The notes beneath the pieces are model-generated. The model saw only the letters and a program-made list of their open reading frames with translations, made no database searches and was not told the origin of the DNA. The position numbers and the translations under genes are program-made. A stretch of DNA of 64,000 nucleotides from Parabacteroides faecis (GTDB lineage Bacteria > Bacteroidota > Bacteroidia > Bacteroidales > Tannerellaceae). Of this stretch, positions 21,911 through 34,292 are shown one piece after another; the first letter of the stretch is position 1, and each line of letters opens with the position of its first letter. The DNA lies in assembly GCF_014647375.1 (NCBI RefSeq), contig NZ_BMPB01000010.1:62001-126000 (forward strand). The letters are read 5' to 3'.

Positions 21911-22096
21911 ACTTTTATCTTCATTCTTCATTTCTTGGTCTGTAGGCTTTGTTCGTTAACCTTTTTCTAGGTGAATGATTGGCTGTTCGGGTGGGCAGTC
22001 TGGATTTGTCGTTCAATGAAAAACACTTTTACTTTTCTTGGATATTTCTTTTTTACTTGACATAGTTCACATAGAACTATATCAATAATCCGTCTG

Positions 22097-22104
22097 CAAA
22101 TATA
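22097..22104 (-). promoter_or_regulatory. -7 box of invertible promoter 1, OFF orientation
   Basis: On the minus strand this reads TATATTTG (TAnnTTTG). It is preceded by a T/A-rich stretch that aligns with the one before the ON-oriented promoter at 28088 (CTYGTTTT, then an A6-TA run). It lies 18 bp from the inverted repeat and fires leftward, toward rnhB. After inversion between 22064 and 22225 it would face the susC at 22575. Confidence 0.8.
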
Positions 22105-22191
22105 GTATTTTTTGCAAAAACAAGATACTTTAACGCTAAAATTAGCAAAATAACGCTATAATTTTATTCTTTTTATACGAATATACCCATT

Positions 22192-22259
22192 AATTCCTCC
22201 TCAAAACATTAGTTCTATGTGAACTAATTCCTCCTCAAAACATTAGTTCTATGTGAACT
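22192..22259 (+). repeat. perfect 34-bp tandem duplication carrying the right inverted repeat
   Basis: Bases 22192-22225 and 22226-22259 are identical. Each unit ends with one copy of AGTTCTATGTGAACT. The duplication gives the OFF segment two alternative right-hand sites, with spacers of 132 or 166 bp to the left site. The outer copy matches the left site's outer flank slightly better (ACAY before AGTTC). Confidence 0.9.
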
Positions 22260-22574
22260 GTGTTAATAATTCCACTAGTGTTGATATTTTGAAAAACTTA
22301 GTTTGAAGAAATATGCAGGTAAATCGATTCAATAATTTATTGTTGGATTGTCCTCTTTGGAAGCTAATAAGCTGTCGTTATTTATTTTAGAAAAGAAATG
22401 CTAATTTCTGCTGTAGATAAACGCTAAATAATTTCTATAAAAAGTCTAATTTTTGATTCAGGTCAGGTATGAGGAACAATAGCAGCTAGTAGAAGGGATA
22501 GAAGAAATATTTCTTTTTTAACCTAATCAGTGAATGGTTTTTTATTCAAGTTCTAATCATTAAATAATTAAGTT
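22260..22574 (+). other. AT-rich leader of susC operon 1
   Basis: No gene, perfect TAnnTTTG box or convincing terminator was seen in this stretch. It would be the long 5' untranslated region (about 315 nt) when the invertible promoter is ON. The last 15 or so bases before the ATG closely match the bases before the paralogous susC at 28420. Confidence 0.5.
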
Positions 22575-25500
22575 ATGAATAATTGCACAAAGAAAGTTGC
22601 CTGCATGGCTATTCCTTTGTTTTGTCTTAATTTGACCATGGTGGCTGAAAACACTATTTCAGATTTTGATGTCCAGAAGGCTGTAGTAGTAGAGGCAGCT
22701 TCTGTTAATCAGAGTATCCGCAAAGTAACAGGTATTGTTAAAGACGAAAACGGAGAACCGGTAATTGGTGCCAGTGTTGTAGAAGTAGGCACGACGAATG
22801 GTATTATGACAGATATGGATGGTAAATTTGAACTGTCCATGAGTGCTAATGGCTCATTACAAATCTCTTATGTCGGTTTTGTTACCCAGACAATGAAACC
22901 GGGAAATAAAAATAATCTCCAGATCGTTTTACAGGAAGATAACCAAGCTTTGGATGAAGTTGTGGTTGTAGCTTTCGGTAAAAGTACAAAAGAAGCTTTC
23001 ACCGGTTCTGCCGGTATAATGAAGGCAGACGATCTTCTGAAAGCACAGGTGTCGAATCCGGCTCAGGCTTTGGCCGGACGTGTTGCCGGTGTACAGTTGA
23101 GTAACGCTTCTTCACAGCCGGGTAGTTCGCCCTCTATTACTATCCGTGGTTTTGGTTCTATTTCTTCGGATACGGAGCCTTTAATCGTAGTGGACGGTAT
23201 GCCTTTCGATGGTGACCTGAACCTGATCAACTCCAACGATATCGAGTCGATGACCGTATTGAAGGATGCTGCCTCGAATGCCTTGTATGGTGCCCGTGGA
23301 GCCAATGGTGTGATTATGATCACAACAAAGAAAGGTAAGAATGGAGACGCCAAAGTGTCTGTAGATGCTAAATGGGGAGCAAACTCCAATGGCCTTCAAA
23401 ATTATAAGACAACAAATGCTCAGCAGTTTTATGAAACTTATTATAAAATGCTGTATAACTATTATATAACGGAAGCTGGTGGCGGTATGTCTGCTACTGA
23501 TGCCCATGCATTGGCAAATCAACATCTGACAAATTCGTCAAGTGGTGTTGGTCCGGGATATATGGTTTATTCAGTTCCGGAGGGACAAGATTTTATCCAG
23601 CAGGGCGGAACAATGAATCCGGGAGCGACTATGGGAACTCTTTATAATTATAACGGTCAGAAACTTTGGCTGCAAGCCGACGATTGGGAAGAAATCGGAT
23701 TGAAAAACGGTTTCCGTCAGGAATATAATGTCTCGGTATCCGGTGCCTCTGAACGTATTAATTATTATACCTCTGTGGGGTATCTGGATCAGGATGGTAT
23801 CCAGGAAGGTTCATCGCAGAAACGTTTGACAGCACGTGCCAAACTGGACTATCAAGCGAAGAAATGGTTAAAAGTCGGTGCAAACTTCAATTATTCCAAG
23901 TACAATTACAGCCAGACATCTGAAGGTACGATCGGTACCGGAACGATTTGGAGTACAATCAAAACTCAGGCGCCTATTTATCCGGTTTATTTCCGTGATG
24001 AAAATAAGAATATCATGATCGATAAATGGGGAGAGAAAATGTATGACTTCGCACAAGCTTATGATCTGAGTCGTGCAGGAGGTGTTGGTGGTAACTGTAT
24101 TTTTTCTAATAAATACCGATCGGATGAAACAACAGGTAACTCGTTTATTGCTAGTGGTTATGCAGATATAAATCTGACTAATGATTTGACATTCACATTT
24201 AATGCCAATGCCTATGATTACGACCGCCGTTATACCTATGCTACCAGTCCTTTTGTCGATTACTACACCAGTTCATCCGATAACGGTTATCTGTCAAAAG
24301 CATCTTACCGTACCTTTACTTATAATACACAACAGTTATTGAATTACAACAAACAATTTGGTAAGCATGATGTAGGTGCTATGATCGGTCATGAATACTA
24401 TAATTACAAATATGAATCGTTGAGTGCCTCCGGGCGTAATTTCGGAATCGATAATACGCGCGAGTTAGCAACTCTTTTGAATCTGAATAATAATCCGTAT
24501 TCTTATTCCAATTCTTATAATAACGAAGGTTATTTCTTCCGCGCCATGTATAACTATGATGCAAAGTATTTCGGTTCGGTGTCTTATCGCCGTGATGCTT
24601 CTTCACGCTTCGCAAAAGACCACCGTTGGGGTAACTTCTGGTCGGTCGGTGGTGCTTGGCTTATTTCGAAGGAAGCTTTCTTTAATGCACCTTGGGTGAA
24701 TTCTTTGAAACTGAAAGCATCTGTCGGCTCACAAGGTAACGACAATATCGGGGATTATTTATATGCCGATTCCTACAAAGTGGTAAATAATGACGACCAA
24801 GCTGCTTATCAATGGCGCCAGAAAGGCTCTAGTGATATTACCTGGGAAACTAATACGAACTGGAATGTGGGTGCCGAATTCGATCTTTTCGATGGACGTC
24901 TGAGTGGTAGCCTGGATTATTTCTACCGGAAGACCAGTGATATGTTGTTCTCGCTGAATACACCTCCTTCTATCGGTTATACCAGTTATTTCATTAATCT
25001 GGGTGACATGCGAAATGCCGGTCTCGAGTTAGTATTGCAGGGTACGTTGATTAGAAATAAAGATTTCAAGTGGGATGTTAATTTCAATATCTCTCATGTA
25101 AAGAATAAGGTACTGACCTTGCCGGATGCAATAAAAACGACAAAGGTAGACGGACATAACGGTTATGTTAACCTGGATAAGTCGTTTGTTTCCAAATATA
25201 AATATTTCGTAGCCGAAGGGCTTTCTCTCTACACATGGTACTTACCTAAGTTTGCCGGTCTGGATCCTGAAACGGGAGAATCATTGTTCTATAAAGATAT
25301 CCTCGATGATGCAGGAAATGTAACCGGACAGGAGACAACTAAAGATTCGAGTCAGGCAACCGACTATCTGATTGGCGATGCTCTTCCGTCTTTCTATGGC
25401 GGTTTGGGAACATCTTTGACCTATCGTGGTTTCGACTTCTCCATCAATCTGAACTATCAGTTGGGTGGAAAGGCATACGATTATACTTATCAGACATTGA

Positions 25501-25874
25501 TGCATACCAGTACAACTTCGTCTACAACATGGCATAAGGACATATTGAATGCCTGGTCTCCGGAGAATACAGGTTCAAATATTCCACGTTTGCAATTTGC
25601 TGAAAAGTATTCACAGAATCCTCGTTCAGACCGCTTTATTACTAATGCGAGCTATCTGAATGTACAGAATATCAACCTGGGATATACATTGCCCTCAAGC
25701 TTGACACAGAAGTATAATATCCAGAATATACGTGTTTACTTCTCCGGTGAAAACCTGTTTTACTTCTCGGCACGCCAGGGATTCGATCCTCGTTATACGT
25801 TGAAGGGATATAGTAATCCGGAACTCTATTCTCCGATACGTACTATCTCTGGTGGTATTTCATTGACATTCTAA
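22575..25874 (+). CDS. SusC/RagA TonB-dependent transporter, phase-variable copy 1
   Basis: Outer-membrane nutrient importer of 1099 aa. It has a signal sequence with a cleavage region near NLTMVAE, no STN domain, a carboxypeptidase-like domain at about residues 50-130 (VTGIVKDENGEPVIGASV), the plug with DEVVVVAFGKSTKEAFTGSAG and LIVVDGMPFDGDLNLI, and a beta-barrel ending in GGISLTF. Most of the protein is nearly identical to the SusC at 28420-31746; differences concentrate in the N-terminal 50 residues and scattered barrel positions. The SusD partner follows after 19 bp. The upstream invertible promoter is in the OFF direction, so this copy should be silent in the sequenced state unless another promoter exists. 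Confidence 0.95.
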   Translation: MNNCTKKVACMAIPLFCLNLTMVAENTISDFDVQKAVVVEAASVNQSIRKVTGIVKDENGEPVIGASVVEVGTTNGIMTDMDGKFELSMSANGSLQISYVGFVTQTMKPGNKNNLQIVLQEDNQALDEVVVVAFGKSTKEAFTGSAGIMKADDLLKAQVSNPAQALAGRVAGVQLSNASSQPGSSPSITIRGFGSISSDTEPLIVVDGMPFDGDLNLINSNDIESMTVLKDAASNALYGARGANGVIMITTKKGKNGDAKVSVDAKWGANSNGLQNYKTTNAQQFYETYYKMLYNYYITEAGGGMSATDAHALANQHLTNSSSGVGPGYMVYSVPEGQDFIQQGGTMNPGATMGTLYNYNGQKLWLQADDWEEIGLKNGFRQEYNVSVSGASERINYYTSVGYLDQDGIQEGSSQKRLTARAKLDYQAKKWLKVGANFNYSKYNYSQTSEGTIGTGTIWSTIKTQAPIYPVYFRDENKNIMIDKWGEKMYDFAQAYDLSRAGGVGGNCIFSNKYRSDETTGNSFIASGYADINLTNDLTFTFNANAYDYDRRYTYATSPFVDYYTSSSDNGYLSKASYRTFTYNTQQLLNYNKQFGKHDVGAMIGHEYYNYKYESLSASGRNFGIDNTRELATLLNLNNNPYSYSNSYNNEGYFFRAMYNYDAKYFGSVSYRRDASSRFAKDHRWGNFWSVGGAWLISKEAFFNAPWVNSLKLKASVGSQGNDNIGDYLYADSYKVVNNDDQAAYQWRQKGSSDITWETNTNWNVGAEFDLFDGRLSGSLDYFYRKTSDMLFSLNTPPSIGYTSYFINLGDMRNAGLELVLQGTLIRNKDFKWDVNFNISHVKNKVLTLPDAIKTTKVDGHNGYVNLDKSFVSKYKYFVAEGLSLYTWYLPKFAGLDPETGESLFYKDILDDAGNVTGQETTKDSSQATDYLIGDALPSFYGGLGTSLTYRGFDFSINLNYQLGGKAYDYTYQTLMHTSTTSSTTWHKDILNAWSPENTGSNIPRLQFAEKYSQNPRSDRFITNASYLNVQNINLGYTLPSSLTQKYNIQNIRVYFSGENLFYFSARQGFDPRYTLKGYSNPELYSPIRTISGGISLTF

Positions 25875-25893: not shown

Positions 25894-27783
25894 ATGAAGA
25901 AATATAAGATTTTATTGGCTGCGGCGACTCTTGTGGGTTTTAGTAGCTGTATTGAAGAAACATTGCCGACAGAATATGTACTGAATGACCAGATCCAGGC
26001 ATCGGAGTCGGCATTGCAAGGAATGGTTAACTCCATTTATACCTCGATGGGTGGATACAAGAATGAAGATGGTGGTATAGAAATGATTTCTTATGGTGGC
26101 ATGCGTGCCATGCTGGAGCATAGTACGACCCAGTTTGTTTGCTCGGGAGCGAACGGTTATAACACAATGGGGGCCTATTGTTATGGAGCGATCAGTGCAA
26201 CAGGTTCCAATCGCGGACTGTATCCTTCTTATCTCTACTATTCTTATATTAAGAATGTAAACGACATCATCGGTATGATCGATGTGAATGATCTGGATGA
26301 TACTAAAAAGGGATATCTGGGAGTTAGTTACGCTTATCGTGCTCTTTATTATCTGGACTTGGTTCAGATAATGGAATATAAGAAACCTACTGACAGCCGT
26401 TACAGCTATGTAACTCCGGAGAACGATCTTACTAATTTGGGGGTACCTATTGTAACGGAGAAGACGACATCTGAAGAGGCTTCCAACAATCCGCGTGCAA
26501 CGGTAGATGCTGTTTATGACCTGATTCTGAGCGATCTTCAACAGGCGGAAACTTATCTGGACGGCTATACCCGTACGGATAAAACCCAGCCTAACCTGGC
26601 CGCTGTGTATGGTTTGTATGCCCGTACGTATGCCAACCTGGCTTCTCGTGTAAAAATATCGGCAACCTATAAGGATGAAGCTTCCTACTGGCAAAAATCC
26701 GGTGAATATGCGGATAAGGCAATTTCTGTAGCCGGTTGTACCCCGCTGACGGAGGCAGAATGGACCGATCCGGTAAACGGATTCAATAACCGTAACTCTC
26801 AGAATTCATGGATGTGGGCAACTTCTATTTCTGAAGGTAATACTACGGCTGCCACGGGAAATAATGAATCGTTCTCTTTTGCGATGATCTTCGGAACAGA
26901 AACGACTTTTAGTGTGTATGGCTGGCGTGTCGGCCGTTCGCTCGATCGTAAATGGTACGAACGTCTTTCGGATAACGACTTCCGTAAGAAATCATGGTTG
27001 GATCCTAGCTTCTTCTATGAATCGAAGAATCAGAAAGAAGGAGAGCCATATCTGGTGGAAAGAGATGCTGATGGTAAGTTTATCAATAATAAGTGGTCGG
27101 TAAATGACGTAAGTACAAGTACGACCCAGAGTGACTGGAATGACGACTATTCCGGATTCGGACCTGATAAGTATCAGTATAAGTATAACAGTTCTGCGTC
27201 CTGGATCCGTTCACGTATAAATTCGTCTAATGGGTTCCTGTCATGGCCGTGGTTATATGTTAATATGAAGTTCCGTCCGCATAACGGCGATTACCGGACT
27301 CATACGGTTGGTGGTGCAGTCGATTATCCGATCATGCGTATTGAAGAAATGTATTTCCTAAAAGCGGAAGCTGCTCTTCATACATCGGGTGTTCCGGCAG
27401 CTGCTACAATTTTGGAAGAAATTGTGAAGACACGTAATTCTACCTATACCTGTACGGCAACGACTACTGATGCATTCCTGGATGAATATGTATTTCAAAA
27501 AGGTATTGAGTTCTGGGGTGAAGGTATCAACTATTTTGATGCTAAGCGTCTGGAAGTAGGTATCCATCGTGCTTATAAAGGAACGAACTGTGAACGTTAT
27601 CAGCATTGTATTGATATGGACGGCGTATATGTTGGCTGGACTCCGGGCTGGAACCAGGCAGAGTTGAATGCTAATCCTGCTATTTATCATTATAATAATC
27701 CGTATACAAATCCGACGACCTATTATGTCTATAAGTCTAATGATGAGATAAAGCCGTATTATGGTACTGAAATCACCGAGTAA
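25894..27783 (+). CDS. SusD/RagB-family lipoprotein, phase-variable copy 1
   Basis: Partner of the SusC just upstream. The lipobox ends at Cys19 (LVGFSSC) and continues IEETLPTEYVLNDQIQASE. The SusD core includes SYAYRALYYLDLVQIMEYKKPT, and the C-terminal module has IMRIEEMYFLKAEAAL and GIEFWGEGINYFDAKRLEVG. At 629 aa it equals the copy at 31766-33655 in length and is very similar throughout. Differences include GGMRAM versus ASMRAM near residue 66 and DPSFF versus APNFF. A strong terminator follows. Ligand unknown; the paralogs may differ in ligand or only in surface antigenicity. Confidence 0.95.
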   Translation: MKKYKILLAAATLVGFSSCIEETLPTEYVLNDQIQASESALQGMVNSIYTSMGGYKNEDGGIEMISYGGMRAMLEHSTTQFVCSGANGYNTMGAYCYGAISATGSNRGLYPSYLYYSYIKNVNDIIGMIDVNDLDDTKKGYLGVSYAYRALYYLDLVQIMEYKKPTDSRYSYVTPENDLTNLGVPIVTEKTTSEEASNNPRATVDAVYDLILSDLQQAETYLDGYTRTDKTQPNLAAVYGLYARTYANLASRVKISATYKDEASYWQKSGEYADKAISVAGCTPLTEAEWTDPVNGFNNRNSQNSWMWATSISEGNTTAATGNNESFSFAMIFGTETTFSVYGWRVGRSLDRKWYERLSDNDFRKKSWLDPSFFYESKNQKEGEPYLVERDADGKFINNKWSVNDVSTSTTQSDWNDDYSGFGPDKYQYKYNSSASWIRSRINSSNGFLSWPWLYVNMKFRPHNGDYRTHTVGGAVDYPIMRIEEMYFLKAEAALHTSGVPAAATILEEIVKTRNSTYTCTATTTDAFLDEYVFQKGIEFWGEGINYFDAKRLEVGIHRAYKGTNCERYQHCIDMDGVYVGWTPGWNQAELNANPAIYHYNNPYTNPTTYYVYKSNDEIKPYYGTEITE

Positions 27784-27966: not shown

Positions 27967-28129
27967 AGTTCACGTAGGACTCCAGCAATTAAAGGATGAG
28001 ACGAAGTCTTTTAATACATAAATTGGCAACAATATGTTTTTTTTATTTATTTTTTATACTAAACCGCGCTCGTTTTATAAAAAATAGTATATTTGTATAC
28101 TGATATTTAGATAGAGTCCTACGTGAACT
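27967..28129. repeat. invertible promoter segment 2 (ON), bounded by 16-bp perfect inverted repeats
   Basis: AGTTCACGTAGGACTC at 27967-27982 is perfectly inverted at 28114-28129. Counted from the 15-bp core, the spacer is 133 bp. It contains one TAnnTTTG box at 28088-28095, 19 bp from the right repeat and pointing toward the susC at 28420. The repeat differs from that of segment 1 at two core positions (consensus AGTTCACRTAGRACT). The two segments could share a recombinase but should recombine preferentially within themselves. Inversion is inferred from structure, as no reads are available. Confidence 0.85.
28088..28095 (+). promoter_or_regulatory. -7 box of invertible promoter 2, ON orientation
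   Basis: TATATTTG (TAnnTTTG), identical in sequence to the box in segment 1 and preceded by a similar T/A-rich stretch. Transcription would start near 28102, cross the right inverted repeat and read a leader of about 315 nt into susC at 28420. Confidence 0.8.
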
Positions 28130-28198
28130 ATGCTCAAAATATCTATTACACTAATGAATACAGGTTTAAGAAGTTAGGAGAAATTGTGGATAACAAAC

Positions 28199-28263
28199 AG
28201 TCTGATTTGTCAGATTGTGCTTTTGGGCAGGCTATGAAATATAGCCTTTGTGGTCTTTTTTTT
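28199..28263 (+). promoter_or_regulatory. two hairpins in the leader of susCD operon 2, possible attenuator
   Basis: TCTGA pairs with TCAGA near 28201-28214. Then AGGCTAT (28229-28235) pairs with ATAGCCT (28241-28247), followed at a distance by an eight-T run (28256-28263). The T run is 8 nt from the stem, so terminator strength is doubtful. No equivalent structure was seen in the leader of operon 1. Confidence 0.35.
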
Positions 28264-28292
28264 ATAGTAAAAACCATTAATTAATTTTTAAC

Positions 28293-28367
28293 ATGACGAC
28301 AAACACTAAATGGATGAAGTTACATGCATCGGCAATATTCGCCATACCCGTATGCATATATGCTTAG
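28293..28367 (+). CDS. 24-codon leader ORF or signal-peptide remnant
   Basis: ATG at 28293 opens a 24-residue frame, MTTNTKWMKLHASAIFAIPV and then CIYA, ending in TAG at 28365-28367, 52 bp before the susC ATG. It looks like a signal peptide with nothing attached and is preceded by an A/T-rich region like that of Bacteroidetes start sites. It may be a leader peptide, or the stranded 5' end of a receptor gene left by past recombination at this locus. Translation is not shown. Confidence 0.35.
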   Translation: MTTNTKWMKLHASAIFAIPVCIYA

Positions 28368-28419
28368 TATCTTCTCTTCGTATTTGATTTATGAGTTATA
28401 ATCACTAATTATTTAAGTT

Positions 28420-31400
28420 ATGAATTACACTAAGAAAGTCATTTTTGTACCTATGGCTTTATTTTGTCTGGGGTTGCCGTTGGCTGCCGAGAGTAATGTC
28501 TCTGCAAAACAGGCAATGACAGAATTAAGTGCAAATGGTAGCCATTCCGCAATTGCGGTGCATGAAGCAACATCGACGGCTCAGAATACCCGTAGAGTAA
28601 CAGGGGTAGTGAAAGACGAAAACGGTGAACCGGTGATCGGCGCCAGTGTTGTTGAGGTAGGTACTACCAACGGTATCATGACAGATCTCGACGGTAAGTT
28701 CGAGTTATCTATCCCGTCAGGCAGTTCGCTGCAAATCTCTTATGTGGGTTATGTTACCCAGACTATCCGGCCGGGGAACCGGAACAATATCCAAGTCGTA
28801 TTACAGGAAGACAGCCAGGCACTGGATGAAGTTGTAGTGGTTGCTTTCGGTAAAAGTACAAAAGAAGCCTTTACCGGTTCTGCCGGTATAATGAAGGCGG
28901 ACGATCTTTTGAAAGCACAGGTAAGTAACCCAGCCCAGGCGTTAGCCGGACGTGTTGCCGGTGTTCAGTTGAGCAACGCTTCTTCACAGCCGGGTAGTTC
29001 GCCCTCTATAACTATCCGTGGTTTCGGTTCTATTTCTTCGGATACGGAACCGCTGATCGTAGTGGACGGTATGCCTTTCGACGGTGACCTGAACCTGATC
29101 AACTCCAACGATATCGAGTCGATGACTGTCTTGAAAGATGCTGCTTCCAACGCGCTGTATGGTGCCCGTGGTGCCAACGGTGTGATCATGATCACGACCA
29201 AGAAAGGGAAAAGCGGAGAAGCCAAAGTGTCTGTAGATGCTAAATGGGGATCGAACTCCAATGGTCTTCGGAACTATAAGACGACGAATTCCCAGCAGTT
29301 CTACGAAACATATTACAAGATGTTGTATAACTATTATATAACAGAAGGCGGTGGAGGTATGTCGGCTACCGATGCTCATGCTCTGGCAAACCAGCATCTG
29401 ACCAGCTCTTCCAGTGGGGTAGGCCCGGGTTATATGGTCTATACCGTTCCCGACGGACAGGATTTCATTCAACAGGGGGGAACCATGAACCCGGGAGCGA
29501 CTATGGGGTCTCTTTATAACTATAACGGACAGAAATTCTGGTTGCAGGCCGACGACTGGGAGGATATCGGTTTGCAGAACGGTTTCCGCCAGGAATATAA
29601 CGTGTCGGTTTCCGGTGCTTCCGAACGTGTTAATTATTATACCTCTGTCGGTTATCTGGATCAGGATGGTATCCAGGAAGGTTCCACGCAGAAACGTTTG
29701 ACGGCGCGTGCAAAACTGGATTACCAGGCAAAGACATGGCTGAAAGTCGGTGCGAATTTCAACTACTCCAAATATGATTACAGCAAGACATCCGAAGGTA
29801 CGATCGGTACCGGTACCATCTGGAGTACGATAAAGACCCAGGCTCCTGTCTATCCTGTTTATTTCCGTGATGAAAACAAGAACATCATGGTCGATAAATG
29901 GGGAGAGAATATGTATGACTTCGCTCAGGCCTACGACTTGAACCGTGCAGGTGGTGTGGGTGGCAACTGTATCTTCAATAACAAGTATAATGTAAATGAA
30001 ACAACCGGTAACTCGTTTATCGCCAGTGGTTATGTAGATGTAAATCTGACCAAGGACCTGACATTCACGTTCAATGCCAATGCGTATGATTACGACCGGC
30101 GTTATACGGAGGCAAAAAGTCCTTTTGTCGATTATTACACCAGTTCGTCCGATAACGGTACCCTCTATAAGGCCTCTTACCGTACTTTTACTTATAATAC
30201 GCAACAGTTGCTGAATTACGGCAAACAGTTCGGCAAGCATGACGTGAGCGCGATGGTCGGTCATGAATATTACAATTACAAATATGAGTCACTGAGCGCT
30301 TCCGGACGTAATTTCGGTATCGATAACTCTTGGGAGCTGGCGACACTTCTGAATCTGAACAATACTCCGAATTCTTATTCCAATACGTATAATAACGAAG
30401 GGTATTTCTTCCGTGCGATGTACAACTACGATGCAAAATATTTCGGTTCGGTCTCTTACCGTCGTGATGCTTCTTCCCGTTTCGCGAAAGACCACCGTTG
30501 GGGTAACTTCTGGTCGGTCGGCGGTGCCTGGCTTATCTCGAAGGAGTCGTTCTTCAATGTGCCTTGGGTGAATTCTTTGAAACTGAAGGCTTCTGTCGGC
30601 TCACAGGGTAACGACAATATCGGCGATTATTTGTATGCCGACTCTTATACGGTAGTGAACAACGATGACCAGCCTGCTTTCCAATGGCGTCAGAAAGGCT
30701 CCGGCGATATCACCTGGGAAACCAATACAAACTGGAATGTGGGTACCGAATTCGACCTGTTCAACGGACGCCTAAGCGGTAGCCTCGATTATTTCTACCG
30801 GAAAACCAGTGATATGCTCTTCTCCCTGAATACACCTCCTTCTATCGGTTACACCAGTTATTTCATTAACATGGGGGATATGCGTAATGCTGGTCTTGAG
30901 TTGGTATTGCAAGGCACGCTGATCCGGAATAAGGACTTCAAGTGGGATGTTAATTTCAATATCTCCCATGTGAAGAACAAAGTACTGACTTTACCGGATG
31001 AAATCAAGACAACCAAGGTGGACGGTCATGACGGTTACGTCAACCTGGATAAGTCGTTCGTATCCAAGTACAAATATTTCGTGGCTGAAGGTCTTTCTCT
31101 CTACACATGGTACTTACCTAAGTTTGCCGGTCTTGATCCTGAAACAGGAGAATCCTTGTTCCATAAAGATATCCTCGACGATGCAGGAAATGTGACGGGA
31201 CAAGAAATGACCAAGGATGTCAACCAGGCTACCGATTACCTGATCGGCGATGCGCTTCCGGCTTTCTATGGTGGTTTGGGTACATCTTTGAGCTATCGCG
31301 GTTTCGACTTCTCCATCAACCTCAACTATCAGTTGGGAGGTAAGGCATACGATTATACCTACTCGACATTGATGCACACCAGTACAGCCACTTCTTCAAC

Positions 31401-31746
31401 CTGGCATACAGACATGCTGAATGCCTGGTCGCCGGAGAATAGAGGTTCAAGTGTTCCACGTTTGCAGTTTGCAGAAACATATTCGCAGAATTCGCGTTCA
31501 GACCGTTTCATCACCAATGCAAGCTACCTGAACATCCAGAACATCAATCTGGGTTATACATTGCCATCCAGTTTGACACAACAGTATAAAATACAGAACA
31601 TACGTGTTTACTTCTCGGGTGAAAACCTGTTCTACTTCTCGGCACGCCAGGGATTCGACCCTCGCTATACGTTGAAAGGATATACTAACCCGGAACTTTA
31701 TTCTCCGATACGTACTATCTCGGGCGGTATTTCATTGACATTCTAA
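28420..31746 (+). CDS. SusC/RagA TonB-dependent transporter, phase-variable copy 2
   Basis: 1108-aa paralog of the SusC at 22575-25874, with the same architecture: signal peptide (LGLPLAAE), carboxypeptidase-like domain (VTGVVKDENGEPVIGASV), plug (DEVVVVAFGKSTKEAFTG) and a barrel ending GGISLTF. The N-terminal 55 residues differ strongly and include a 9-residue longer stretch before the carboxypeptidase-like domain; the plug is almost unchanged. The DNA differs largely at third codon positions, so the duplication is not recent, although blocks of identity suggest gene conversion. The SusD partner begins 19 bp downstream. The promoter in the upstream invertible segment faces this gene, so it should be the expressed version. 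Confidence 0.95.
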   Translation: MNYTKKVIFVPMALFCLGLPLAAESNVSAKQAMTELSANGSHSAIAVHEATSTAQNTRRVTGVVKDENGEPVIGASVVEVGTTNGIMTDLDGKFELSIPSGSSLQISYVGYVTQTIRPGNRNNIQVVLQEDSQALDEVVVVAFGKSTKEAFTGSAGIMKADDLLKAQVSNPAQALAGRVAGVQLSNASSQPGSSPSITIRGFGSISSDTEPLIVVDGMPFDGDLNLINSNDIESMTVLKDAASNALYGARGANGVIMITTKKGKSGEAKVSVDAKWGSNSNGLRNYKTTNSQQFYETYYKMLYNYYITEGGGGMSATDAHALANQHLTSSSSGVGPGYMVYTVPDGQDFIQQGGTMNPGATMGSLYNYNGQKFWLQADDWEDIGLQNGFRQEYNVSVSGASERVNYYTSVGYLDQDGIQEGSTQKRLTARAKLDYQAKTWLKVGANFNYSKYDYSKTSEGTIGTGTIWSTIKTQAPVYPVYFRDENKNIMVDKWGENMYDFAQAYDLNRAGGVGGNCIFNNKYNVNETTGNSFIASGYVDVNLTKDLTFTFNANAYDYDRRYTEAKSPFVDYYTSSSDNGTLYKASYRTFTYNTQQLLNYGKQFGKHDVSAMVGHEYYNYKYESLSASGRNFGIDNSWELATLLNLNNTPNSYSNTYNNEGYFFRAMYNYDAKYFGSVSYRRDASSRFAKDHRWGNFWSVGGAWLISKESFFNVPWVNSLKLKASVGSQGNDNIGDYLYADSYTVVNNDDQPAFQWRQKGSGDITWETNTNWNVGTEFDLFNGRLSGSLDYFYRKTSDMLFSLNTPPSIGYTSYFINMGDMRNAGLELVLQGTLIRNKDFKWDVNFNISHVKNKVLTLPDEIKTTKVDGHDGYVNLDKSFVSKYKYFVAEGLSLYTWYLPKFAGLDPETGESLFHKDILDDAGNVTGQEMTKDVNQATDYLIGDALPAFYGGLGTSLSYRGFDFSINLNYQLGGKAYDYTYSTLMHTSTATSSTWHTDMLNAWSPENRGSSVPRLQFAETYSQNSRSDRFITNASYLNIQNINLGYTLPSSLTQQYKIQNIRVYFSGENLFYFSARQGFDPRYTLKGYTNPELYSPIRTISGGISLTF

Positions 31747-31765: not shown

Positions 31766-33655
31766 ATGAAGAAATATAAGATTTTATTGGCTGCAGCGGC
31801 TCTTCTGGGGTTAAGTAGCTGTATTGAAGAAACATTACCGACGCAATACGTGCTGAATGACCAGATACAGGCGTCGGAATCGGCATTGCAGGGAATGGTA
31901 AACTCTATTTATACCTCGATGGGAGGATATATAAATGAAGACGGCGGTATAGAAATGATCTCCTACGCCAGTATGCGTGCCATGCTGGAACATAGTACAG
32001 GCCAGTTTGTTTGTTCCGGAGGTAACGGTTATAACACGATGGGCGCCTATTGTTATGGGGCGATAAGTGCTACCGGATCTAACCGCGGACTGTACCCTTC
32101 TTACCTGTATTATTCTTACATAAAGAATGTAAACGACATCATCGGCATGATCGATGTGAACGATATGGATGATACGAAGAAGTCTTATCTGGGAATCAGT
32201 TATGCCTACCGTGCCCTTTATTATCTCGACCTGGTACAGATCATGGAATATAAGAAACCCACGGATAGCCGCTACAACTATGTGGCGCCTGAAAACGACC
32301 TGACCAACCTGGGCGTGCCTATCGTAACGGAAAAGACCACATCGGAAGAGGCTTCCAACAACCCACGTGCGACGGTGGATGCAGCCTATGATTTGATATT
32401 GAGTGACTTGCAGCAGGCTGAAACCTATCTCGAAGGATATACCCGCACCGATAAAACCCAGCCTAATCTGGCGGCTGTCTATGGTTTGTATGCCCGTACA
32501 TATGCTAACCTGGCTTCCCGTGTGAAAACATCAGCTTCCTATAAGGATGAAGCCTCTTACTGGCAGAAATCCGGCGAATATGCGGACAGGGCTATTTCTG
32601 TAGCCGGTTGTACTCCGTTGACGGAAAGTGAATGGACGGATCCGGTGAACGGCTTCAACAATCGTAACTCGCAGAACTCATGGATGTGGGCAACTTCCAT
32701 TTCGGAAGGTAACACCACTGCTGCTACCGGCAATAATCAGTCATTCTCTTTCGCCATGATCTTCGGGACAGAGACGACCTTCAGTGTGTATGGTTGGCGT
32801 GTCGGTCGTTCGCTCGACCGTAAATGGTACGAACGTCTTTCAGACAACGACTTCCGCAAGAAATCGTGGCTGGCTCCTAACTTCTTCTACGAGTCGAAGA
32901 ACCAGAAAGAAGGTGAGCCGTATCTGGTGGAAAGAAGTGCAGACGGCAAGTTCGTCAACAATAAATGGTCGGTCAACGACATAAGCACAAGTACGACCCA
33001 GAGTGACTGGAATGACGACTATTCCGGATTCGGACCTGATAAGTATCAATATAAGTATAACAGTTCTGCGTCGTGGATTCGTTCACGTATTAATTCATCC
33101 AACGGTTACCAGTCATGGCCATGGTTGTACGTCAATATGAAGTTCCGTCCGCACAACGGTGATTACCGGACACACTCGATCGGTGGTGCCGTCGATTGCC
33201 CGATCATGCGTATTGAAGAAATGTATTTCCTGAAAGCCGAAGCGGCACTTCATACATCGGGTGTACCGGCAGCAGCGGCCATTTTGGAGGATATCGTGAA
33301 GACCCGTAATCCGTCTTATACCTGCACGGCAACGACTGCCGATGCGCTTCTGGATGAGTATGTTTTCCAGAAAGGTGTCGAGTTCTGGGGTGAAGGCGTC
33401 AACTACTTTGACGCTAAGCGTCTGGAACTGGGTATCCACCGTGCTTATAAAGGAACGAACTGCGAACGTTACCAGCATTGTCTCGACATGGACGGTGTAT
33501 TTGTCGGTTGGACTCCGGGTTGGAATCAGGCAGAGCTGAATGCCAATCCTGCCATTTTCCATTACAATAATCCGTATACGAATCCGACGACTTATTACGT
33601 ATATAAGTCGAACGATGATTTCCGACCGTATTATGGAACTGAGATAACCGAATAA
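31766..33655 (+). CDS. SusD/RagB-family lipoprotein, phase-variable copy 2
   Basis: 629-aa partner of the SusC just upstream and paralog of the protein at 25894-27783. The lipobox ends at Cys19 (LLGLSSC), followed by IEETLPTQYVLNDQ. The TPR-like core and the C-terminal GVEFWGEGVNYFDAKRLELG module are present. The first 40 or so nucleotides, and the susC-susD junction before them, are almost identical between the two operons, giving a substrate for homologous exchange. The two SusD proteins keep a constant length, which fits swapping of whole modules or point divergence rather than domain gain. Likely ON together with its susC. Confidence 0.95.
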   Translation: MKKYKILLAAAALLGLSSCIEETLPTQYVLNDQIQASESALQGMVNSIYTSMGGYINEDGGIEMISYASMRAMLEHSTGQFVCSGGNGYNTMGAYCYGAISATGSNRGLYPSYLYYSYIKNVNDIIGMIDVNDMDDTKKSYLGISYAYRALYYLDLVQIMEYKKPTDSRYNYVAPENDLTNLGVPIVTEKTTSEEASNNPRATVDAAYDLILSDLQQAETYLEGYTRTDKTQPNLAAVYGLYARTYANLASRVKTSASYKDEASYWQKSGEYADRAISVAGCTPLTESEWTDPVNGFNNRNSQNSWMWATSISEGNTTAATGNNQSFSFAMIFGTETTFSVYGWRVGRSLDRKWYERLSDNDFRKKSWLAPNFFYESKNQKEGEPYLVERSADGKFVNNKWSVNDISTSTTQSDWNDDYSGFGPDKYQYKYNSSASWIRSRINSSNGYQSWPWLYVNMKFRPHNGDYRTHSIGGAVDCPIMRIEEMYFLKAEAALHTSGVPAAAAILEDIVKTRNPSYTCTATTADALLDEYVFQKGVEFWGEGVNYFDAKRLELGIHRAYKGTNCERYQHCLDMDGVFVGWTPGWNQAELNANPAIFHYNNPYTNPTTYYVYKSNDDFRPYYGTEITE

Positions 33656-33700: not shown

Positions 33701-34292
33701 CAATAAAAGTTTTCGTAAATAAATCCTTCATTCCTTCATCTGTATGACTAATCGCTTGATTGTGGTTATTCTATGGATGAAGGAATATTATATATATGAA
33801 GGATTTTTCTTGTGTTTTATATTTTTTAGTTCATAAATGATCGCATCCTATACAATGAAAAGGCTAGGTATTCACCGGTAGGCTATCAGTTTGCCTATTC
33901 TATTTTAGTACATAGCCAGTGACTCCTTAGGTCAATTATCCTTTCTTCTTTTCTGTTTGTCAATTATCGAACGTTTGTTTGTCAGATGTCAAACGCTTGT
34001 TCGATAGCTGTGATATAAGCGTTTGACAACTGACAAATAAGAAAGAAGAGATAATGTTTTAGATAACAAGTAGTTATAAGATTCGTTATTGCTTATTACC
34101 TAAGCTTCACTTCTTGCCTGAAGAATTAAACCTAAACAGACATCAATATCTGGAAGGATAATGATGTATTAATCCGAAAAGAAGACTGTTTCCTTCATTA
34201 CACTAAAAATCCTTCATCTGTAAATAACAAATAATTAGTTAGTTATATTACAGATGAAGGAATGAAGGACTTGTTTCTGAAAACTTTTGTTG
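33701..34292. repeat. 592-bp gene-free element with long terminal inverted repeats (MITE-like or foldback)
   Basis: Left end 33701-33743 and right end 34250-34292 are inverted copies: outer CAAYAAAAGTTTTC, a degenerate 10-bp middle, then a perfect 19-bp inner block beginning CCTTCATTCCTTCATC. Further inverted pairs lie inside: ATGAAGGATTTTT at 33796-33808 with its complement at 34205-34217, and local hairpins made from CCTTCAT units near both ends. No reading frame of note, no TAnnTTTG box and no obvious target-site duplication were seen. It fills the gap between the convergent susD and sufE genes. Origin as a non-autonomous mobile element is inference. Confidence 0.6.
33956..34037. repeat. 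three-unit repeat forming a strong hairpin
   Basis: A 21-bp unit at 33978-33998 (TTTGTCAGATGTCAAACGCT plus T) is repeated inverted at 34017-34037 with one mismatch, leaving an 18-nt loop. A partial third copy lies at 33956-33973. ATCGAAC (33966-33972) can also pair with GTTCGAT (33999-34005), so two alternative folds compete. It sits in the middle of the 592-bp element. Confidence 0.6.

Follow-up and report, generated by a model that had tools for sequence, protein, structure and literature searches.

A putative invertible promoter upstream of a SusCD operon in Parabacteroides faecis, and a genome-wide set of about 35 related segments

Introduction

The closest described relatives of the locus considered here are three inversion systems of Bacteroides fragilis. 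The recombinase Tsr0667 acts on SusC/SusD regions (Nakayama-Imaohji 2009, cited in PMC4747536 and PMC11852207), and PMC4747536 lists three SusCD clusters and nine other regions for it. The same paper describes Mpi as a serine recombinase, seven of whose 13 regions are capsule promoters, and Tsr19 as a tyrosine recombinase with two targets, IVp-I and IVp-II, one near and one distant; at IVp-I, transcription is reported there to fall as more repeats stand between the promoter and its gene.

The element described here lies within a window of 64,000 nucleotides, the stretch of DNA from which the analysis started. It resembles the Tsr0667 system in that several SusCD loci of one genome carry one repeat motif, 20 of 35 segments lying directly upstream of a susC-like gene and eight more being connected to one via an ECF sigma gene. 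In B. fragilis, one recombinase serves many distant regions with SusC/SusD targets, and inversion changes expression; the likeness here is one of target genes and setting. Unlike the Tsr0667 regions, the Parabacteroides set comprises about 35 segments, mostly promoter-sized single flips rather than shufflons, and eight of them adjoin ECF sigma genes. A single global invertase that flips many promoters, which is the feature of Mpi, is also what we propose here, but the targets that we identified are mostly SusCD operons, and the matched cores of the sites lead us to infer a tyrosine recombinase. Tsr19 differs in having just two targets, yet its IVp-I offers a parallel to the doubled right repeat at operon 1 described below, which might likewise lower transcription. 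A literature search of titles and the beginnings of abstracts, mostly outside subscription journals, gave no recognisable account of invertible ECF-sigma/SusCD promoters in Parabacteroides, and none of the papers listed by one search contains both half-sites together with the word invertible.

Results

A first-pass annotation of the window had described a 16-bp repeat, perfectly inverted around a 133-bp spacer with a single promoter box aimed at susC. The perfect 16-bp repeat is indeed there (Table 1), and was also recovered by an unbiased repeat scan. The spacer length is correct for arms of 15 bp, but becomes 131 bp if the arms are counted as 16 bp. The single TATATTTG box does point toward susC; it is separated by 19 bp from the 15-bp right arm, and nothing else in the segment matches TAnnTTTG, quoted in PMC4747536 as the Bacteroides -7 consensus. 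No TAnnTTTG occurs on either strand of the leaders 22260–22574 and 28130–28419, and, by eye, the promoter of operon 2 has a weak -33 element. The element measures 163 bp in total and is followed by a 290-bp leader and then by susC. It thus has the feature that marks the invertible promoters of Bacteroidales: short inverted repeats flanking a promoter upstream of a surface-protein operon. All four genes of the two operons encode SusC and SusD family proteins. The operon 2 leader also contains a 24-codon open frame (28293–28367) that begins MTTNTK and could encode a leader peptide; by eye, the same start is found in the related genomes G038 and G009, where the frames are longer.

The segment of operon 1 (22064–22259) has the same arrangement with its box reversed and with an extra, second right-hand repeat, bearing out the view that the two segments mirror each other, one with its box toward susC (ON, operon 2) and the other with its box away from it (OFF, operon 1). 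The repeats of the two operons differ, as had been said, at two positions of 15, namely 8 and 12. The window contains four perfect inverted repeats that have arms of 15 bp or longer and 60–600 bp between them, against a mean of 0.05 in 100 shuffles made with our own approximate dinucleotide procedure, five of which had one such repeat and none more. Three of the four entries belong to the segments of operons 1 and 2, while the fourth is found at 33724/34249. The motif AGTTCACRTAGRACT, with up to two mismatches allowed, has five matches in the window against 0.27 expected, and all five are exact. The fourth inverted repeat (33724–34269) is a perfect one of 21 bp with arms about 500 bp apart, lies downstream of the susD of operon 2, and is not of the AGTTC class.

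Table 1. Features of the two segments, their operons, and related loci (positions refer to the window unless a genome or contig is named)
Feature	Position	Strand	Remarks
Left repeat, operon 1 segment	22064..22078	+	AGTTCACATAGAACT; core ACATA
TATATTTG box, operon 1	22097..22104	-	points away from susC (OFF)
34-bp tandem duplication	22191..22258	+	doubles the operon 1 right repeat; read directly from the sequence
Inner right repeat, operon 1 segment	22211..22225	-	AGTTCACATAGAACT
Outer right repeat, operon 1 segment	22245..22259	-	AGTTCACATAGAACT
susC, operon 1	22575..25874	+	
susD, operon 1	25894..27783	+	
Left inverted repeat, operon 2 segment	27967..27982	+	AGTTCACGTAGGACTC; arms AGTTC/GGACT, core ACGTA
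Putative invertible segment between the arms	27983..28113	+	131 bp; promoter toward susC (ON)
TATATTTG box, operon 2	28088..28095	+	matches Bacteroides -7 consensus TAnnTTTG; aimed at susC (28420)
Right inverted repeat, operon 2 segment	28114..28129	-	perfect inverse of 27967–27982
susC, operon 2	28420..31746	+	SusC/RagA TonB-linked receptor, TIGR04056
susD, operon 2	31766..33655	+	SusD-like_3 / SusD_RagB
Candidate recombinase L029	G000:C3:454683-455873		397 aa; Arm-DNA-bind_5, Phage_int_SAM_5 (SAM-like) and Phage_integrase domains
ECF-sigma-adjoining segments	L048, L050, L052, L059, L069, L071, L079, L085		own genome

The repeat of operon 2 belongs to a class with the pattern AGTTC-N5-GAACT, which is also how the repeat of the Tsr0667 regions reportedly reads. 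Further pairs of the class, for which the first-pass annotation had suggested looking, are abundant in the source genome (G000; 6.66 Mb, genus Parabacteroides), in which we count 35 segments of the class. The pattern AGTTC-N2-R-N2-GAACT, which counts every site once, has 66 exact matches, compared with one for the reversed control pattern. Forty-five of these form 22 neighbouring inverted pairs (one, at operon 1, with a third copy), another 12 each have an inverted partner close by whose core is identical but whose arms contain one or two mismatches, and nine are solitary; core identity was imposed in the search for the 12 mismatched partners, and not for the exact sites. Operon 2, whose right half-sites read GGACT and thus fall outside the exact pattern, adds the 35th segment. 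All 23 pairs of neighbouring exact sites within 2 kb of each other share their core and 22 are on opposite strands, the sole same-strand pair being the operon 1 duplication.

The arms of 83 segments, taken from stretches of three genomes, give the consensus ACWT-AGTTC-T-nnn-A-GAACT-AWGT, in which the middle three bases are freest. Among the 79 segments shorter than 700 bp from these genomes, 53 have a TAnnTTTG box 13–22 bp from an arm (shuffled segment letters gave a mean of 1.4 and at most 4), and 12 have no such box. Judged by arm sequence and, for the most part, by promoter placement, the segments of operons 1 and 2 are both members of this common set of about 35, and these shared properties suggest that the set probably uses one recombinase.

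The 20 susC segments lie 0–315 bp upstream of their gene. Direction can be read in 15 of them, where a box lies within 34 bp of an arm: 11 are OFF and four, operon 2 included, are ON. In the fetched stretches around the eight segments that adjoin an ECF sigma gene, a susC-like gene follows further on the same side in every case, and whole sigma-linked uptake operons may be phase variable by way of these segments. Four others adjoin genes for FecR, an outer membrane efflux protein, a CsgG-like protein and an NHL/TIG protein, and the remaining three (L054, L055 and L065) were assigned to no target. Approached from the side of the genes, 25 loci with susC relatives obtained by genome scan, among them L151 with just 271 bp of upstream sequence covered, gave a site pair within 1.8 kb upstream at one, L153 of P. 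gordonii. L074 (C3:209683–210107) is flanked by divergent susC-like genes, one on each side, and stands ON for one of the two; inversion there would choose between two operons, and a second left-hand site is present.

We compared the segments of the source genome with those of G009 (P. gordonii) and G038. Orientation relative to the flanks could be decided at nine loci, a count that excludes L056, L063, L064 and L076. The segment is reversed in a relative at three of these (L048, operon 1 and L066) and has the same orientation at six (L051, L053, L057, operon 2, L068 and L071), so that, going by these alignments, members of the class are found reversed between species. The cleanest case is L066, for which both 1.5-kb flanks match the G038 orthologue (L214) on one strand at 85–91% and the segment matches on the other at 97.5%, with the switch of strand falling at the 15-bp repeats. 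L048 is reversed relative to both relatives, with one flank alignable; at operon 1, susC matches P. gordonii on the same strand, and the 71 bp just inside the left repeat match it on the opposite one (82%). We set aside L074, which had been scored as reversed relative to G009, since similar susC genes on both sides make the flank correspondence ambiguous. No reversal was seen at operon 2, which is ON in all three species read (the source genome, G009 and G038); inversion of its own segment is something that we infer. In G001, G009, G010, G014 and G022, moreover, there are contigs with a site less than 50 bp from their low end, as would be expected if assemblies broke where orientations are mixed. 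As a separate matter, the reversed segment of L066 is more alike between the two species than are its flanks.

The first-pass annotation had also raised the question of the nearest recombinase, which we can answer for the tyrosine type. Searching the source genome with the profile PF00589 gave 22–23 matches, none of them in the window, and the recombinase would therefore have to work in trans; the best candidate lies elsewhere, at C3:454683. The pattern AGTTC-N5-GRACT is absent from the + strand of stretches of about 3.4 kb around 23 of the tyrosine recombinase matches. This candidate, the 397-aa protein L029, is probably the recombinase of the switch, and from its setting we propose that it would be a Tsr0667-like invertase. 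It has matches in 27 of 39 genomes of the genus (19 nearly full-length and eight partial; two each in G006, G008 and G013, and one in every other matching genome), and the motifs TGLR, HxARH, GHKS and TTEIY, which we take to hold the catalytic residues, are conserved in the ten orthologues compared.

All three neighbourhoods of L029 that were scanned have SusC and SusD family genes next to it. In G004, two divergent susC genes lie near the L029 orthologue, and the interval between them is taken up by an exact site pair. Exact site pairs occur 4.8–6.1 kb from the L029 gene in six of 17 neighbourhoods (G002–G006 and G019), five of which had been noticed before the 17 were chosen and which include near relatives of each other; the other 11, the source genome among them, have no site pair, and G018 has a single site. 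Site pairs are found in ten of 11 genomes with a near-full-length L029 gene and in three of 12 without it (Fisher p 0.003). It is important to note that this 23-genome table was counted by hand and ignores shared ancestry, that 15 genomes and G008 (split gene) stand outside it, and that G002, counted as having the gene, has two stops inside it. The three genomes with site pairs in which L029 was not found (G022, G010 and G033) are all drafts of 140 to 490 contigs; in G001 the gene is present but a site pair is not. In the source genome, contig C3 ends at 460550, about 4.7 kb from L029. The end falls at the beginning of a susC-like gene or within it, and a shufflon or a repeat there could be the cause.

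In G038 and G009 the same neighbours enclose just one operon; G022 also has one operon, with its genes split in the assembly and its contig ending 271 bp upstream of susC. In trees, for which only protein pieces were available from G022, operon 2 groups with G038 (SusC 100/98, SusD 88/91) and operon 1 groups with G022 in SusD (86/92), the SusC placement of operon 1 being unresolved. The two operon copies thus appear, from these trees, to be older than these species, the relatives having kept one. The core of the operon 2 orthologue is ACATA in G038 and in P. gordonii, compared with ACGTA in the source genome, and from its absence in both relatives we take it that both arms changed in the lineage of the source genome. 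The GGACT arm variant is common to operon 2 and G038, which makes the arm difference older than the core difference. Such core changes are seen elsewhere: in seven orthologous segment pairs a single core base is changed, and six of these changes are transitions (for six of the seven pairs the search left the two arms free to differ, and for L206/L196 it required them to be equal). In L053 and L076, more than one core base differs from the counterpart.

Discussion

Our reading of these results is that the 163-bp element is the invertible promoter of a SusCD operon, to which we give a probability of roughly 0.87. A tyrosine recombinase acting in trans would pair the two AGTTC-N5-GRACT sites and reverse the segment between them, turning the sole recognisable promoter either toward the susC of operon 2, as it stands in the assembly (ON), or in the opposite direction (OFF); operon 1 would have the same switch, assembled OFF. 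The first-pass annotation's expectation that the cells express operon 2 and not operon 1 follows from this model as a prediction drawn from one assembly.

One alternative is that the promoter of operon 2 is fixed, its repeats being relics and the operon constitutively ON. The shared ON state of all three species would suit such a relic, as would the presence in both arms of the half-site GGACT, whose variant base occurs in 5–7% of arms. However, the arms still match perfectly over 16 bp, their cores differ from those of G038 and P. gordonii by an identical change, a pattern consistent with ongoing exchange between the arms, and AGTCC/GGACT variants of one arm recur at other members of the class, making us sceptical that the switch has been lost; we consider a fixed promoter very unlikely. 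A weightier alternative concerns the enzyme. The switch might be as we describe and yet be worked by a Tsr-type protein (L039–L044), by XerC/XerD, or by another tyrosine or a serine recombinase. With 22 PF00589 matches over the cut-off there is no shortage of tyrosine candidates, and relatives of L043 with at least 60% identity are found, among the matches listed, only in G000, G038, G013, G009 and G022, all of them site-rich genomes. Against this, L039 and L041–L044 each adjoin an inverted repeat of 18–26 bp of the type CTTATT-N5-AATAAG, and L040 adjoins yet another; such different local repeats suggest other site preferences, and for this reason we set the Tsr-type proteins aside as first choice. 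The short recombinase L034 (about 195–231 aa) was likewise rejected, being not found in site-rich G013 and present only as a broken remnant in G038. Another enzyme therefore seems to us possible but the less likely case, and L029 remains our preferred candidate for the invertible promoter.

It had further been suggested that the repeats of the two operons differ in order to prevent cross-recombination, that is, that they diverged under selection because crossing would delete or invert the 6 kb between them. The neighbouring cores do differ (ACATA and ACGTA), and the orthologues that have no second operon keep ACATA, as this idea would have it. Nonetheless, locus pairs sharing a core number eight among the 35 loci, compared with 9.6 expected from composition, so that unique, private cores can be dismissed as a selected property of the set; ACGTA itself recurs on another contig, at C8:262682; single-base core changes are common between orthologues at other loci; and the GGACT difference is the older one. 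The two copies, moreover, seem to predate these species, and yet G038 and G009 hold just one operon here, which suggests that a copy can be lost. No special selection is thus required to account for the difference between operons 1 and 2, and we find the claim poorly supported: selected insulation is unlikely, and mismatched cores may hinder cross-recombination as a by-product.

In our view the operon 2 switch is a real invertible promoter, and its kind has already been described in relatives. It is the set that is unusually large, and the 35 segments together are more interesting than the single switch. They add Parabacteroides to the bacteria with SusCD phase variation through promoter inversion, outnumber the 12 regions given for B. 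fragilis in PMC4747536, and suggest chance switching of entire ECF-sigma-linked uptake operons. With a defined motif, 35 loci and one candidate enzyme, the number of uptake systems per invertase becomes a testable question. Going further, we would offer only tentatively the wider view that one chromosomal tyrosine recombinase governs the approximately 35 segments, acting directly on SusCD operons and, at a second level, on ECF-sigma/SusCD clusters via their sigma genes, a single enzyme thereby randomising much of the nutrient-uptake surface, and that the 5-bp cores drift by single bases, mostly transitions, passing from arm to arm through tolerated heteroduplex, as address codes of the switches that evolve in step.

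Two observations lie to one side of these questions. The perfect CTTATT-N5-AATAAG repeats beside L042, L043 and L044, and also beside L039 and L041, form a second site class with a similar 5-bp-core layout. In G022, two inverted sites 153 bp apart (C109:22976 and C109:23129) have cores one transition apart, TTACA and TTGCA, and this pair has possibly been caught in the middle of a core change.
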